Below are positions 7,482 through 49,222 of a DNA stretch of 50,000 nt, piece by piece. Below the pieces are notes generated by a model. It was not told the DNA's origin. It made no database searches and worked only from the letters and a program-made list of their open reading frames with translations. Location of the stretch: the NCBI GenBank assembly GCA_028277945.1, contig JANQFH010000007.1, positions 1-50,000 of the forward strand, in the 5' to 3' direction. Within the stretch, counting starts at the first letter, position 1, and each line of letters starts with the position of its first letter. The position numbers and the translations under genes are program-made. Origin of the DNA: Oligoflexia bacterium (lineage in GTDB: Bacteria > Bdellovibrionota_G > JANQFH01).

Positions 7482-7534
7482 GTTAGTATCCAGCCATATT
7501 AATTTTTGAAATTTTTTTCCACATCTAACATCGT

Positions 7535-7635
7535 CTCTATAGGCGTGTCTAACCAAGCCTTCGGAGGATGGCTCGGCTCGCTCCACTCGCCTGCGCTTTA
7601 TTCCTCCTCAGGCTGGTTAGACACGCCTGCAGAGG
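7535..7635 (+). repeat. Hairpin repeat A (type-1 arms)
   Basis: The left arm aggcgtgtctaaccaagcct (7541-7560) pairs with 7610-7628, with one bulged A. Pairing extends outward (ctct/agag) and inward (ggagga at 7563-7568 with tcctcc at 7602-7607). The apical core, 7568-7601, begins atggctcg and ends tgcgctttat. Its middle is the gctcgctccactcg version, also seen in hairpin C. It lies 54 bases upstream of the nth start. Read on the minus strand, the core gives the false coding start MERAEP. Confidence 0.88.
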
Positions 7636-7685
7636 TGACAGTGAATGAAAAGATCTCAGGATGTTGTTGTATCCGTGCTATTGTC

Positions 7686-7770
7686 GCGATGGTGTAACAA
7701 CCTGAGAGAAAATAAAGCGCAGGAGGCCGGAGGCCGACGAGCCATTTCTCGAAGGTTGTTACACCATCGC
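7686..7770 (-). repeat. Hairpin repeat B (type-2 arms)
   Basis: Arms gcgatggtgtaacaacct (7686-7703) and 7753-7770 pair perfectly over 18 bp. An inner gagaaa/tttctc stem follows (7706-7711 with 7745-7750). The core at 7712-7745 is the reverse complement of the atggctcg...tgcgctttat core, with the tcggcctccggcctcc middle. The reverse complement of the whole element aligns end to end with hairpin C. Hairpins A and B together form a double-hairpin unit. The rest of the 7482-7842 gap holds only a 50-base spacer and the possible fabH terminator. Confidence 0.88.
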
Positions 7771-7806
7771 TAAGGCAGACGAATGTCACAAAAACAAAAC
7801 TATTTC

Positions 7807-7823
7807 CTTTAGCTTTGCTAAAG
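7807..7823 (-). terminator. Possible intrinsic terminator of fabH
   Basis: A perfect 7-bp stem (ctttagc/gctaaag) with a 3-base loop lies 20 bases past the fabH stop. On the minus strand it is followed, after six bases, by a T-rich run (gttttgttttt). The spacing to the T-run is longer than ideal and the stem has few GC pairs, so termination would be weak. Confidence 0.4.
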
Positions 7824-7842
7824 TATTGATAGGGCATTTATA

Positions 7843-8841
7843 CTAACCCCAGCGTACTAAGGCAGCGCCGCAGGTAAAACCCGCACCAAATCCAGCCATA
7901 AGAACGATCTTACCTTTGCTGAGGCGGCCATCTTCAACCAGTTCAGCTAGGCAGGTAGGAATTGTCGCTGCCGTGGTATTACCGTAGCGATCAAGGTTGA
8001 TGATGACCTGTTGTGGTTCAAGATTAAGGCGCTTACTGCACGCATCGATGATGCGGAGGTTAGCCTGGTGCGGCACAAAAAAGTCAATATCACTGTTTGA
8101 CATAGAGTTCTTTTGCAGGATCTCCTCTGTAATCTTGGTCATTCCATGGACAGCAGCTTTAAAAACGGGTCCGCCTTCCTGGCGAACGTAGTGCATTCTC
8201 TTTTCTACAGTGTCATGGCTGGCTGGATGGCGACTACCGCCCCCGGGCACATAGAGGTATTCAGCGCCGCTACCATCAGAGTACATTAAGGTATCAATGA
8301 CCCCATGCTGGCCACTTTCGATTTCATCAGCCTCCAAGTAGACCGCACCCGCACCATCTCCAAACAGCACACAGGTTGTACGGTCTTCGAAATCGAGAAT
8401 GGAAGACATAACTTCACTGCCAATAAGCAGAATATTCTTATACTTCCCGGTCTTAATGAATTGGTCTGCTGTGGAGAGGCCAAACAAAAACCCACAACAA
8501 GCAGCGTTTAGATCATAACACCAAGCCTTTTTAGCGCCAATTTTGTCCTGGATGATGCAGGCCGAGCTAGGAACCGGCATGTCTGGAGTTACCGTAGCGA
8601 CAATAATGCCATCTATCTGTTGCGGATCTCGGTTAACTTGCTGTAACAGTTTTTTAGCCGCTTCAGCCCCGAGTGTGCTTGTTGTTTCTCCAGGTGCGGC
8701 AATACGGCGAGTACGAATTCCAGTGCGACTGACAATCCAGGAATCATTGGTATCAACCATTTTTTCAAGATCGGCATTTGTCAAGATGCGTTCAGGAAAT
8801 ACGCTAGTGGCGCCAATAATACGAGTAGACCAGGTTTGCAT
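7843..8841 (-). CDS. fabH: Beta-ketoacyl-ACP synthase III
   Basis: FabH condenses acetyl-CoA (or a branched acyl-CoA) with malonyl-ACP to begin fatty-acid synthesis. The thiolase-fold triad is complete: C115 in NAACCGF, H258 in VPHQANLRI and N288 in YGNTTAAT. The 332-residue length is typical. The ATG at 8841 has AAAGGA about 13 bases upstream. It sits alone rather than in a plsX-fabH-fabD cluster, 17 bases downstream of the SH3/beta-barrel gene on the same strand, and is probably cotranscribed with it. The fused E1 dehydrogenase elsewhere in the window could supply branched primers, but this is inference only. Confidence 0.96.
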   Translation of the reverse strand: MQTWSTRIIGATSVFPERILTNADLEKMVDTNDSWIVSRTGIRTRRIAAPGETTSTLGAEAAKKLLQQVNRDPQQIDGIIVATVTPDMPVPSSACIIQDKIGAKKAWCYDLNAACCGFLFGLSTADQFIKTGKYKNILLIGSEVMSSILDFEDRTTCVLFGDGAGAVYLEADEIESGQHGVIDTLMYSDGSGAEYLYVPGGGSRHPASHDTVEKRMHYVRQEGGPVFKAAVHGMTKITEEILQKNSMSNSDIDFFVPHQANLRIIDACSKRLNLEPQQVIINLDRYGNTTAATIPTCLAELVEDGRLSKGKIVLMAGFGAGFTCGAALVRWG

Positions 8842-23329: not shown

Positions 23330-23866
23330 CTAAAAGGCGTACTCTAAACCCACCCGTAGAAATTCCAAGGCGTGAAACGGCCCACCATTTTTTTGAAAGA
23401 TGCTCTCCTCAGAAACCTGATAGGTTAACTGCACACCATCAACGCCAAGGAGATGAAACAGGTCATAGCGTAGGCCAAGTCCAATACGAAAACCAACACT
23501 GGTATCCGGGTCGATTAACAGGATGCCTTCACCCTTCACAAAAGGGCTGAACATACGCAACGGCAACAGGTAGAAGAGGCCACCAAAAGCAAGACCTCGA
23601 TCATCAGGATCTTCGCTTGCGGACTCCAACTCTGCCTCAAATGCGGCAGTTAGTACCATATTGGCGTTGAGGTAGTAACCGAAGAAGATAGCTAGCTGTA
23701 GCTGGCCAACCTCTCCACTTAGCGCCGAGTCGTCGATAAACAGTTTATTAGAAAGTGATGCACCAACCACTCCTTGTTTGGCAACAACTGAGAACGGTAG
23801 TAACAAAAGCAAGACAATAATGATTTTCATGGTCATAGAAACAACTGTTTTGTTTTTGCTTCGCAT
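23330..23866 (-). CDS. Predicted outer-membrane beta-barrel protein
   Basis: A signal peptide (MTMKIIIVLLLLLPFSVVA after a basic lead) is followed by about 150 residues of alternating strands (LQLAIFFGYYLNANMVLTAAFEAEL, GLAFGGLFYLLPL, FRIGLGLRYDL) ending in phenylalanine (LRVGLEYAF). The terminal aromatic residue is typical of barrels recognised by BamA. The size suggests eight strands. The frame extends to a GTG at 23920, but those codons lie inside hairpin repeat C, so ATG 23866 (or 23836) is preferred. It is followed at once by a lipoprotein gene. Specific function is unknown. Confidence 0.75.
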   Translation of the reverse strand: MRSKNKTVVSMTMKIIIVLLLLLPFSVVAKQGVVGASLSNKLFIDDSALSGEVGQLQLAIFFGYYLNANMVLTAAFEAELESASEDPDDRGLAFGGLFYLLPLRMFSPFVKGEGILLIDPDTSVGFRIGLGLRYDLFHLLGVDGVQLTYQVSEESIFQKNGGPFHALEFLRVGLEYAF

Positions 23867-23875
23867 GCCTTCATT

Positions 23876-23962
23876 AGCGATGGTACGACAACCTTCGAGA
23901 AATGGCTCGGCTCGTTCCACTCGCCTGCGCTTTATTTTCTCTCAGGTTATCGTACCATCGCT
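23876..23962 (+). repeat. Hairpin repeat C (type-2 arms)
   Basis: Left arm agcgatggtacgacaacct (23876-23894) pairs with 23944-23962 in 18 of 19 positions. Against hairpin B the arm differs at three adjacent positions, and the opposite strand changes to keep the pairs. The core at 23902-23935 is atggctcg...tgcgctttat with the gctcgttccactcg middle. It lies 10 bases upstream of the barrel gene's ATG and gives its false N-terminal extension. Confidence 0.88.
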
Positions 23963-24011
23963 ATTGGAGAGCGTGTGCAACATAATTTAGCAGTCACTTT
24001 ATCTAACCTCG

Positions 24012-24090
24012 TTTCTGCAGGCGTGTCCAATAGGCCTGAGGCGAAATCAAGTGCAGGAGGCCGGAGGCCGACGAGCCATTAGACGCAGAA
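24012..24090 (-). repeat. Hairpin repeat D (type-1 arms, degraded)
   Basis: The outer stem tttctgc/gcagaaa (24012-24018 with 24084-24090) encloses a left arm (gcaggcgtgtccaataggcct) that matches hairpin A's right arm read in reverse. The opposite arm has been shortened by a deletion. The core ends gacgagccat at 24079 and has the tcggcctcc middle in reverse. With C it forms the inverted counterpart of the A-B unit. The remaining 137 bases up to the gene at 24228 show no gene and no clear promoter. Confidence 0.75.
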
Positions 24091-24227
24091 AGAGTTTACA
24101 AAATATCAAACTGGGCAGCAAACTAGCAAAAATGGTAGTAAGGTCCAGTAAAGGTTAGCTATTTTGTTGCCAGTGGTGGTATTCGATAGTACGTTAGATT
24201 TCTATTCTAGATCTTGGTCTATTTGGG

Positions 24228-45177: not shown

Positions 45178-46064
45178 CGAGTTTGAGTGCAAATGCAGGC
45201 GAGGTTCTAAGCCCGGTTCGCACCTTTTGGCTGTTTTTTCGCCAGAACCGTGGGGCACTCTTTGGGTTGAGCCTTATTGTCTTCTTTTTAATCATTGCTG
45301 TCTTTGCACCCTGGCTTGCTCCTTATGAACCAAGCCATGTACACACCGATGCTTACCGCATCCCCCCCCTTTGGAGCGAGGGAGGCAGCAGGACTTTTGT
45401 CCTCGGTACCGATGACTTGGGCCGTGATCTGCTTAGCCGCTTGCTCTACGGAGCACGAGTCTCTATTGGTCTTAGCTTGTTGGTGGTCATGCTCTCTTTG
45501 CTTGTCGGCACTTCATTGGGCTTAATTGCTGGCTATCGTGGTGGCATGATCGATACCGCAATTATGCGCCTAGTAGACATCCTTATGTCATTGCCGAGCA
45601 TTCTCCTCGCCATTGTGGTGGTGGCTATCCTCGGTCCCGGGTTACTCAACGCCGTCATCGCTGTGAGCGTGGTGAAAATACCCAGTTTTGTCCGTATTGT
45701 GAGAGCCCAGGTGATGGCAGAGAAGAAAAAGGACTATGTTGTTGCCTCCAAGAGCTTTGGCGCTAGTGGTTTTCGGCTTGCTGTCATCAACATCTTCCCC
45801 AACTGTTTAGCACCGCTGATTGTGCAAGCGACGCTCGCCTTTAGTGATGGCATTCTTGATATTGCTGCACTTGGTTTTTTGGGTCTTGGGGCACAACCAC
45901 CAACACCTGAGTGGGGCACCATGCTTGCCGATGCGCGCGCCTTTTTAGAGAGCCAGCCTTGGATGGTAACGTTGCCTGGGCTTTGTATTCTTGCGGTGGT
46001 GCTTGGATTCAACCTACTTGGCGATGGTCTGCGCGATGCCTTCGACCCGCGGCTGCGCATGTAG
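45174..46064 (+). CDS. dppC: Dipeptide ABC transporter permease DppC
   Basis: This second permease half (296 residues) has an N-terminal cytoplasmic helix and six membrane segments. The family segment FVLGTDDLGRDLLSRLLYGARVSIGLSLLVV is followed by GLIAGYRGGMIDTAIMRLVDILMSLPSILLAIVVVA. The EAA loop is YVVASKSFGASGFRLAVINIFPNCLAPLIVQATLAFSDGILDIAALGFLGLG, and the end LGDGLRDAFDPRLRM is characteristic. It is coupled to dppB. A 479-base gap with two large hairpins separates it from dppD, which is unusual for this operon. Confidence 0.95.
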   Translation: MTSLSANAGEVLSPVRTFWLFFRQNRGALFGLSLIVFFLIIAVFAPWLAPYEPSHVHTDAYRIPPLWSEGGSRTFVLGTDDLGRDLLSRLLYGARVSIGLSLLVVMLSLLVGTSLGLIAGYRGGMIDTAIMRLVDILMSLPSILLAIVVVAILGPGLLNAVIAVSVVKIPSFVRIVRAQVMAEKKKDYVVASKSFGASGFRLAVINIFPNCLAPLIVQATLAFSDGILDIAALGFLGLGAQPPTPEWGTMLADARAFLESQPWMVTLPGLCILAVVLGFNLLGDGLRDAFDPRLRM

Positions 46065-46111
46065 TGTTGTTTTCCATAAACATTTAAGCCAAGCCTTCAG
46101 GTTTGCAAAGA

Positions 46112-46284
46112 CAACTAAGTTATTTTGCGCCGCTCCGGCGCTCCACCAGCTCGATTTGTTAACGGTCGCTCCGTCGGGGGCCCCTCCGCTTAACCTCCCT
46201 GCGGTCGGTATCGCGGTCTCCCCTTGACGGAGCTCCCGAACAAATCGGCTGGCTCCGCAAGTCGCTTGCAAAACAACTTAGTTG
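46112..46284. repeat. Large nested hairpin between dppC and dppD (first)
   Basis: The outer arm caactaagttattttgc (46112-46128) pairs with 46268-46284 in 16 of 17 positions. An inner stem pairs 46146-46160 with 46239-46252 (14 bp and one bulged T). The 78-base centre is GC-rich with further short inverted repeats. No coding content is credible. Part of the 46065-46543 intergenic gap. Confidence 0.8.
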
Positions 46285-46344
46285 CCTCTCCAATCCAGAA
46301 AGGTTTGGTTACTTGCATGATCGTCATTCTAGCAACGCTTCTAG

Positions 46345-46490
46345 AAGTACTGTGTCAGGTTTTCTGACGAGGCGTCTCGCAGGCGTCGGCATCGATGCTT
46401 ATAATAGACGCCGACGCCGAGAGCCGAGCAGCCCGAGGCGGCGGAACGCCGAGGGACTGCGTCCTCGGAAGAAAACCTGACACAGTACTT
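46345..46490. repeat. Hairpin with 21-bp perfect arms upstream of dppD
   Basis: Bases 46345-46365 are the exact reverse complement of 46470-46490. After two unpaired bases on each side, pairing resumes with cgagg/cctcg. The GC-rich interior holds another stem, ggcgtcggc/gccgacgcc, and a second set of inverted repeats. The 53 bases from the right arm to the dppD start hold only the ribosome-binding site. The element could act as an attenuator, an mRNA processing or stability structure, or an inserted palindromic element. Confidence 0.85.
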
Positions 46491-46543
46491 ATGAAACGTG
46501 GAAAGAATTTACAAGATGTGAACGGAATACTACTGTAGGTGGG

Positions 46544-47536: not shown

Positions 47537-48486
47537 CCGCTCCTGTACTGCAAGCAGACGATCTCAGTAAGACCTATCAGCTTTCTACAGGATTGGGACG
47601 TCACCACCGTTTGCAAGCGCTCGAAGGTGTTGGCTTCCAACTGTTAAAGCAGCAGACGCTGGCAATCGTTGGTGAGTCTGGTTGTGGCAAGTCAACGCTG
47701 GCTCGGTTGCTGACCGCCATAGAGACACCTAGCCGAGGTAGGATAGAGCTACATGGCAACCCTTTAGATAAGATTGAAAAACGGCTCTATCGCCAAAAGG
47801 TGCAGATGATCTTTCAAGATCCCTATGGCTCGCTTAACCCGCGAAAAAAAGCGATAGAGATCATTGCCGAGCCTCTCTACATCAATACTGAGAAGTCACG
47901 TTCTGAGTGTCGGCAGCTTGCCATGGAGATGATGCAAAAGGTGGGTTTACGTCCTGAATATGCCAGCAGGTACCCGCACATGTTTAGTGGCGGTCAACGA
48001 CAGCGAATTGGTATTGCCCGTGCGCTGATCATGCAACCTGAAGTCGTGATCTGCGATGAGCCGGTATCCGCTTTAGATATCTCGATTCAGGCACAGGTTT
48101 TAAATTTGCTCTTAGAGCTGCAGGAGAGCTTTGATCTAAGTTATATTTTTATTTCACACGATCTTGCCGTCGTACAACACATTGCCGATGAAGTGCTGGT
48201 GATGTACTTGGGTAAGGTTGTAGAATCAGGCAACCGCGAACAGATTTTTTCGCAGGCAAAACATCCTTACACCCAAGGACTGTTGGCAAGCACGCCGCAG
48301 ATCCATGCGGAAGATCGCCAGCAAGAAATTTCGATTGGTGGTGATCTGCCGTCCCCGCTGCATCCCCCCACTGGATGCGCCTTCCACACCCGCTGTCCGC
48401 TGGCTGAGGCCCGCTGTCGGCAAGAAGTTCCACCACTAAGACCTCACAGCGACAACCATCTCGTCGCCTGCCACCTTGTCCCTTAA
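47533..48486 (+). CDS. dppF: Dipeptide ABC transporter ATPase DppF
   Basis: This partner ATPase of DppD has 317 residues, with Walker A GESGCGKS, Q-loop IFQDPYGSLNPRKKA, signature FSGGQRQRIGIARAL, Walker B VVICDEPVSALD and H-loop ISHD. The C-terminal family extension includes TGCAFHTRCPLAEARC. The start overlaps dppD. The last codons and the TAA stop (48484-48486) lie inside the left inverted repeat of the RAYT element, so the element inserted at, or now supplies, the end of this gene. Confidence 0.95.
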   Translation: MTAPVLQADDLSKTYQLSTGLGRHHRLQALEGVGFQLLKQQTLAIVGESGCGKSTLARLLTAIETPSRGRIELHGNPLDKIEKRLYRQKVQMIFQDPYGSLNPRKKAIEIIAEPLYINTEKSRSECRQLAMEMMQKVGLRPEYASRYPHMFSGGQRQRIGIARALIMQPEVVICDEPVSALDISIQAQVLNLLLELQESFDLSYIFISHDLAVVQHIADEVLVMYLGKVVESGNREQIFSQAKHPYTQGLLASTPQIHAEDRQQEISIGGDLPSPLHPPTGCAFHTRCPLAEARCRQEVPPLRPHSDNHLVACHLVP

Positions 48487-48509
48487 AGGTACGGCCTTAC
48501 TTTTAGGGA
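48479..48509 (+). repeat. Left 31-bp inverted repeat of the RAYT element
   Basis: Each copy contains a short hairpin (aagg-tacgg-cctt on this strand at 48486-48498), as REP palindromes do. It is identical, in inverse, to 49192-49222. It overlaps the last three codons of dppF, including the stop. Confidence 0.88.
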
Positions 48510-48510
48510 A

Positions 48511-49161
48511 TCATGTAGCATCTAGTGTTCTAGTAACTAGGCGGTAGTTCTTACTCTGAGGTAGACGAAATCTGGGTTTTTTTAGCGCCCGCCTGATAAG
48601 TTCTTGATGTTTGGATGCATAGGGCCGATTTAGCCAATGGAGCCTGTCAGATAGACTTGGCGGCACAATCGGGGAAGATTGGACCGCATGGTCATAAACT
48701 GCAAGTCCCAGAAAGGTTTTTGCAATGAGGTAGTGGAGTGTGCTGTAGCGGTATTCTTCTGCCAGGTCAGACAAACCAGCTTCCACGGGGTTACGATAGA
48801 CATACTTATAGGCATGGGCTAGGTAGACCTCGTTGTCGATTAGGCACCATCGGTAAGGAGCGCCAAAAATATGATTGATGCGTCCGCTTTTCCTACCAAT
48901 GGTACGGCTTACTTCCCTTAGCAAGTAATTCATGATGGCATCAAGATTTTCCTCTGGGGTATAAAGAAGCATATGAAAGTGATTGGACATCAGTACAAAT
49001 GAAATAACCCTGGCATGGTAATCCTTTGAAACTTTGGATAATTGTTGTGTAAAGACATTCCAACACTCTTGTCTCGGAATATAAAACCATTCCTTATTGT
49101 TAGATCTAGAGACAACATGGTACGGGAATTCTGCAGTTCTTATTAGAGATTTTCTTGGCAT
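48511..49161 (-). CDS. REP-associated tyrosine transposase (RAYT, TnpA-REP-like)
   Basis: This single-domain Y1 transposase of the HUH superfamily nicks single-stranded DNA at short palindromic repeats. The 216-residue product has the RAYT start PYHVVSRSNNKEWFYIP, the metal-binding HUH pair H61 and H63 in MSNHFHMLLYTPE, and the catalytic-tyrosine region YKYVYRNPVEAGL, where Y120 is the best candidate. Unlike IS200 enzymes, RAYTs are usually domesticated single copies that serve REP repeats. The flanking 31-bp repeats are its likely substrate. The gene is intact and has no stop or frameshift. Confidence 0.92.
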   Translation of the reverse strand: MPRKSLIRTAEFPYHVVSRSNNKEWFYIPRQECWNVFTQQLSKVSKDYHARVISFVLMSNHFHMLLYTPEENLDAIMNYLLREVSRTIGRKSGRINHIFGAPYRWCLIDNEVYLAHAYKYVYRNPVEAGLSDLAEEYRYSTLHYLIAKTFLGLAVYDHAVQSSPIVPPSLSDRLHWLNRPYASKHQELIRRALKKPRFRLPQSKNYRLVTRTLDAT

Positions 49162-49191: not shown

Positions 49192-49222
49192 TCCCTAAAA
49201 GTAAGGCCGTACCTTTAAGGGA
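49192..49222 (-). repeat. Right 31-bp inverted repeat of the RAYT element
   Basis: This is the exact reverse complement of 48479-48509. It lies 30 bases upstream of the transposase ATG and ends immediately before the stop codon of the next minus-strand gene. Confidence 0.88.

Follow-up and report, generated by a model that had tools for sequence, protein, structure and literature searches.

The window analyzed here is a stretch of 50,000 nucleotides from an Oligoflexia bacterium. Between the genes nth and fabH, it contains two long hairpins ~51 bases apart. Hairpin A is located at positions 7531-7638, with main arms (7535-7555 and 7614-7634) that are 90% complementary, and hairpin B at positions 7681-7775, with main arms (7686-7711 and 7745-7770) that are 92% complementary. 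Both are read on the plus strand, as is the spacer between them at 7639-7680, the length of which is kept at 12 loci. The tips of the two hairpins carry ATGGCTCG...CTGCGCTTTAT in opposite orientation. The apical core of hairpin A, ATGGCTCG..CTGCGCTTTATT, which is common to B, is found on the plus strand at 7568-7602, and the core of hairpin B is inverted relative to it, on the minus strand at 7711-7745.

Both hairpins were recognized as inverted repeats, by DNA folding and by covariation. Folding of positions 7530-7775 as RNA gave -117.5 kcal/mol (z = -9.45), which was equaled by none of 200 shuffles, and the single-strand DNA folds gave z = -5.8 for hairpin A and z = -7.4 for hairpin B. A hairpin scan of stretches of the host genome totaling ~830 kb detected 53 long hairpins, as compared to 0 in a first-order-Markov control. 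The pair at 7535-7770 is genuine, lies far outside what chance would produce, and belongs to one repeated unit. An earlier note on this DNA had described two long hairpins with different arms and related cores between nth and fabH, and the inverted repeats, the folds and the common core all confirm this description.

The repeat unit is ~360 bp long and non-coding, and has the structure END1 - hairpin A - ~50-bp spacer - hairpin B - END2. The complete unit 1 is located on the plus strand at 7483-7844, where it matched positions 3-363 of a 364-position unit profile HMM (E = 1.7e-103) that was built from seven copies, unit 1 among them. END2 repeats END1 in inverted orientation (CTAGTNTNNTGTCCCAC..., also given as CTAGTNTNNTGTCCCACNANTATTTTG). 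Both flanks are conserved, with END1 (CTAGTNTNNTGTCCCACNANTATTTTGTAAATTCTTTCCACGTTT; consensus taken from sibling loci) at the A side and END2 (...GCAAAAACAAAACAATTGCCTTTAACTTTGCCAAAATAGTTGTGGGACANNANACTAG) at the B side. In unit 1, END1 (TTAGTATCCAGCC...TTCC) is a degenerate left terminal repeat at 7483-7524 on the plus strand, identified from the sequence and the unit HMM. END2 is located at 7789-7845 on the same strand (END2 HMM, E = 1.4e-7) and terminates in CTA, which is read on the minus strand as TAG, the stop codon of fabH.

Copies of the unit in the host genome

The host genome (G000; 2.86 Mb in 92 contigs, 95.6% complete) was searched in its entirety at the DNA level and with a covariance model. 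The DNA search yielded 79 matches, with hairpin A and/or B at ~25 loci. The covariance model of hairpin B, which also recognizes A, produced 49 matches, all of them at known loci. Two further hairpins, E and G, are present at eight loci, some of which are in common with the ~25 A/B loci. In total, the genome contains about 30 copies of the unit, whole or broken. The units are spread over 13 contigs, and thus belong to the genome and not to a single contaminating contig.

Hairpins A and B were both found at twelve loci, with a core-to-core gap, calculated from the coordinates, of 109-111 bp in all 12. Two of these loci are on contig C9, both in the window, and two on C2; the others are on C66 and at C10:80 kb, C61:287 kb, C72:42 kb, C59:132 kb, C59:193 kb, C47:23 kb and C47:40 kb. 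The check suggested in the earlier note (a core search, a covariance model and a count of units) thus revealed neither two loci only nor hairpins occurring independently of one another, and its view that the unit, rather than each hairpin, is repeated is supported. The size of ~235 bp that it had given for the repeated unit needs revision, since the ends were overlooked; neither the terminal repeats nor the second hairpin set with the same ends had been described. The copies are 70-90% identical to one another. At the loci examined, the ends enclosed no transposase gene.

The second A/B locus of the window is unit 2, on the minus strand at 23820-24109, which matched positions 19-347 of the unit HMM (E = 2.3e-77) and is located between divergent genes. 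Its hairpin B at 23865-23975 (minus strand) is intact, with a core at 23902-23936 read on the plus strand. Hairpin A is reduced to the core and the 3' arm, a remnant at 24006-24080 (minus strand) with the core at 24045-24079 read on the minus strand. Only B forms a hairpin when unit 2 is folded; A, having lost one arm, does not fold. The inverted copy that had been reported at 23876-24090 is therefore present with an intact B, although the arm pairing does not extend to A, one arm of which is missing.

Truncated and recombinant copies

Most single-hairpin copies appear to be truncations, deletions or A/B hybrids. Several of them retain part of the other half, either spacer or fragments of the absent hairpin, and so resemble truncated two-hairpin units. 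The copies at C59:380180, C61:333538 and on C24 start at positions 150, 143 and 161 of the unit model, respectively, and the copy on C35 ends at position 182. The copy at C59:159 kb consists of hairpin A and, after it, the right half of B. Hybrids with a join in the core were observed at C10:488 kb (A-left/B-right) and at C28:118.7 kb (B-left/A-right), and the copy at C47:40.6 kb has a B/A join inside. The top of hairpin A is flipped relative to its flanks in three two-hairpin units (C2:111 kb, C47:23 kb and C72:42 kb), and the top of B is likewise flipped in one of these, C47:23 kb.

At several loci, the apical loop contains large structured inserts (modules C, D and F), and these modules recur in other hairpins. 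A and B of one unit tend to differ in loop type, but the loop frequencies are such that this tendency lacks statistical significance.

Terminal repeats and a second pair of hairpins

The tail of the END2 profile (positions 38-68) matches the heads of END1 on the opposite strand at C10:429499, C2:52832, C63:62023 and C28:118999. Since the END1 and END2 profile HMMs cross-match on opposite strands, the ends are terminal inverted repeats, which are degenerate in many copies.

A search with a neighboring palindrome, hairpin E, led to a second type of unit. Unit 3, on the minus strand at 46062-46534, has END1 and END2 as in the A/B units, as identified by the END HMM matches (END1 at 46534-46494, E = 8.7e-6; END2 at 46128-46062, E = 2.7e-6), with hairpins G and E in place of A and B. 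Hairpin G is located at 46343-46492 on the minus strand, with arms at 46345-46372 and 46463-46490 (inverted repeat; DNA fold, z = -9.4), and hairpin E at 46100-46300 on the same strand. The sequences of G and E are unrelated to those of A and B. The order END1 - G - spacer - E - END2 is constant at four loci: the window (46062-46534), C59:297 kb, C68:30 kb and C61:172 kb. A G/E hybrid at C10:509 kb parallels the A/B hybrid, and at C10:429 kb an A-type left half is joined to an E-type END2. Nothing else points as clearly to a mobile unit delimited by its ends, with the hairpins as interchangeable modules, as the finding of the same ends around either A/B or G/E.

Covariation of the hairpin arms

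Covariation was analyzed in alignments of 14 copies of hairpin B (A1) and 12 copies of hairpin A (A2). For hairpin A, 11 pairs covaried and 19 cells were changed on both sides, as compared to 3.6 and 6.0 in shuffles. The values for hairpin B were 10 pairs and 16 cells, as compared to 2.3 and 2.7 in shuffles, and the 16 cells changed on both sides stand against 2 G-U cells. The observed values were reached by no shuffle for either hairpin. There was no clear strand excess of G-U over A-C cells, and many cells are shared by descent. The changes on both sides fit a matching of the arms at the DNA level better than a slow co-evolution of RNA, a reading that is suggestive only, because of the shared descent among the copies. 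In the same two alignments, the feet of the hairpins had no tag in common, CGTC being present in some A copies only, and the hairpins were not assigned to the GTAG/CGTC-tagged palindromic repeats.

Location of the units relative to genes

The units occupy short intergenic gaps on both strands, and the flanking genes are different at every locus. Gaps between convergent genes account for 15 of 34 units, as compared to 17% of all neighboring gene pairs (p = 2e-4, based on crude gene calls). Inspection by hand took one unit out of this set (C9:7480, owing to a misassigned nth call) and brought another in (C24), which leaves the count at 15. Of the 22 gene 3' ends that flank units, 15 have their stop codon within the terminal TAG of the unit, as exemplified in the window by fabH (7843-7845) and a permease gene ending at 46064. 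Most termini have YTAR/CTAG; CTAG is palindromic and could represent the end of the terminal inverted repeat instead of a target duplication. Either YTAR/TAG sites are preferred by the element, or a gene that it enters is terminated, without much harm, by the TAG of the element itself. Neither of the A/B loci in the window contains a hairpin with a T run, and an intrinsic terminator was accordingly rejected for both.

Transposases of the host

DDE_Tnp_1 (PF01609) is absent from the host genome. DDE_3 (PF13358) has a single sub-threshold match, on contig C11, which ends too soon to show terminal repeats. At the extreme end of this contig (stretch L285) is a 308-aa transposase-like protein with the weak DDE_3 match, which may be of native or foreign origin.

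The host has four RAYT-like Y1_Tnp proteins, two of which are above the Pfam cut-off; all four match REP_Tyr_transpos (NF047646), below the curated cut-off in each case. One of the genes is located in the window, on the minus strand at 48511-49161, and is flanked by 31-nt perfect inverted repeats. These consist of the palindrome TCCCTTAAAGGTACGGCCTTACTTTTAGGGA at 48479-48509 and 49192-49222, which is distinct from hairpins A, B, E and G. The 31-nt repeat is also found in dispersed inverted doublets of ~68 bp, for example at C2:107377-107444, C61:170315 and C59:200024, and these doublets constitute a true REPIN-type family, separate from the two-hairpin unit. A second RAYT gene, at 1414-2135 of L231 (contig C61, near position 13 kb), is flanked by a different perfect inverted repeat of 22 nt, GTACCCGCTTCCTTTTGATACT. 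RAYT genes with long terminal inverted repeats have been described previously as "TIRtrons" (PMC3733652). The RAYT-like genes of the host resemble these in being located within long perfect inverted repeats of a dispersed family, but their terminal repeats are different from the END1 and END2 of the two-hairpin unit. No RAYT gene was seen to be flanked by the A, B, E or G hairpins or by END1 and END2, and nothing links the RAYT proteins to the unit.

Nature of the two-hairpin unit

We consider the two-hairpin unit to be probably a non-autonomous, MITE-like mobile element of ~360 bp, the best supported of the explanations. Its transposition is inferred from the repetition, the fixed architecture, the terminal inverted repeats, the alternative hairpins, the recombinants and the genomic context, and terminal inverted repeats and dispersed repeated copies without coding capacity are features expected of a MITE. 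A transposase that recognizes the ends would act in trans to copy the whole unit, from END1 to END2, and would insert it at YTAR/CTAG-like sites, typically at TAG stop codons. The internal hairpins would be passengers or structural spacers. Their arms may be kept matched through the correction of one arm by the other in an extruded hairpin or cruciform, and the tips would invert within the arms. Recombination between units at the common core would generate the flips, the A/B hybrids and the single-hairpin derivatives. The mobilizer of such an element would have been lost, be unbinned, or belong to a family beyond those searched. Points against a MITE-like element are that no transposase with these ends was found among the families searched, that copies of 70-90% identity give no sign of recent movement, and that the coincidence with stop codons could partly stem from the TAG of the terminal inverted repeat ending a gene that was cut.

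A different role for the hairpins is suggested by the finding that the same ends surround unrelated but equally paired hairpins (A+B or G+E) in a fixed order. Two folded structures may thus be needed for transposition or resolution, whatever their sequence, in which case both internal hairpins would be active in the machinery. We regard this reading, which includes an exchange of hairpins at the tips and insertion at stop codons, as rather unlikely. It is also unlikely, and slightly more so, that the unit is a REPIN/BIME-like element mobilized by a RAYT (Y1/HuH) transposase of the host that recognizes single-stranded DNA hairpins. The four Y1_Tnp proteins would be at hand for such a role, and paired inverted hairpins, intergenic sites and compensatory changes are all known for REPINs (PMC3116915). 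However, the RAYT of the window belongs with a REPIN family of its own and that of L231 with another repeat, no RAYT was seen between the hairpins or ends of the unit, and, in contrast to REPs of 20-40 nt, the hairpins of the units are ~100 nt long and enclosed by terminal inverted repeats.

The enrichment between convergent genes, the adjoining stop codons, and the covariation of stems in which the internal loops and the tip are conserved would also be consistent with hairpins that work in the RNA of the host, as a transcribed 3'-end module that stabilizes mRNA or blocks read-through between convergent genes. The absence of terminator-like sites at the two A/B loci of the window, the scarcity of G-U pairs in the upper arms and the lack of a clear strand excess of G-U over A-C argue against such a function, and so do the location of unit 2 between divergent genes with one A arm lost, the replacement of both hairpins in the G/E version, the plentiful truncated copies, and the absence of copies from four genomes of the same phylum; we judge it to be distinctly improbable. 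An origin as integron attC-like sites, recombined as folded single strands, is the most improbable of all and hardly to be expected. It is true that GTCCAAC/GTTGGAC in the A arms fits the motif RYYYAAC/GTTRRRY, that the core-to-core fold of ~74 nt is of attC size, and that the variable apical loops and the joins at the tip are reminiscent of attC. Yet the B arms depart from the motif, the paired stems extend well beyond it, and the units are solitary among unrelated genes, with no cassette arrays.

Comparison with known repeats and distribution

The unit resembles bacterial MITEs (Correia, ERIC/RU-type and RUP-type) in being short, non-coding and intergenic, with terminal inverted repeats, many degenerate dispersed copies and no internal transposase. 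It differs from these in having two large internal palindromes at fixed spacing, hairpin modules that are exchangeable between constant ends, frequent tip flips and core-joined hybrids; moreover, its parent insertion sequence was not found among the families searched. With REPINs and BIMEs (PMC3116915, PMC2817692) it shares two inverted palindromes that replicate together, singlets that are remnants of doublets, compensatory changes, mosaic combinations and an intergenic location. In a REPIN doublet, the same short REP is present twice in inverted orientation, and the two copies pair to form one hairpin (PMC3116915, PMC2817692), whereas the arms of A and B are unrelated, each folds separately into its own ~100-nt hairpin, and terminal repeats are present. 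Nor does the unit have a cognate RAYT flanked by the same repeat, and it was not classified as a REPIN. The nested palindromic repeats of Volvox organelles, short hairpins of 11-77 nt with loops of 3-5 nt (PMC2670323), are similar in having palindromes within palindromes, here the structured inserts in the apical loops, but a fixed two-hairpin unit is absent from Volvox.

Rfam contained no family at these hairpins, and tRNA was the only Rfam family matched in the window. A two-hairpin unit with exchangeable hairpins was not encountered in the open-access literature searched, which described only the general kinds (REPIN, BIME, MITE and nested palindromes). A search with the core gave no match in the contigs of the genome collection, in viral contigs, plasmids or phages. 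No copy was found by DNA search in 57 genomes besides the host, four of them from the same phylum, or by a covariance-model scan of these four. The FabH protein is at most 56% identical to that of the nearest named genomes, showing that the lineage of the host is poorly sampled.

If our interpretation is correct, the unit would bring a modular, two-hairpin design to the range of small mobile repeats in bacteria, from a lineage of which hardly any relatives have been sequenced. The same ends with two unrelated pairs of hairpins provide a natural test of whether large palindromes are passengers or needed structures, and the flips and tip-joined hybrids would constitute a readable record of palindrome recombination in a bacterial chromosome.

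Other palindromes and repeats

Other large hairpins, in which long and nearly perfect arms carry a structured, GC-rich top, were observed at C72:117202-117345, C72:91130-91254, C72:91332-91451, C10:83658-83841 and C10:290726-290925. Some of their tops have modules in common with hairpin E or with the A/B loop inserts, and the sharing of top modules among several hairpins suggests a wider mosaic of palindromic modules in the genome. Inverted copies of a tRNA 3' end (CCTCTCCGTTCAAG...CTTGAACGGAGAGG) form hairpins at C72:72510-73739 and C10:513605-513806, beside apparent tRNA genes. In the window, a 24-bp direct repeat (ATTACTGGGGTCCTGG.AAGGCCT) at 781-970, with copies 166 bp apart, is located directly after a tRNA gene, and positions 850-900 are similar to the D module in the apical loop at C59:193 kb.
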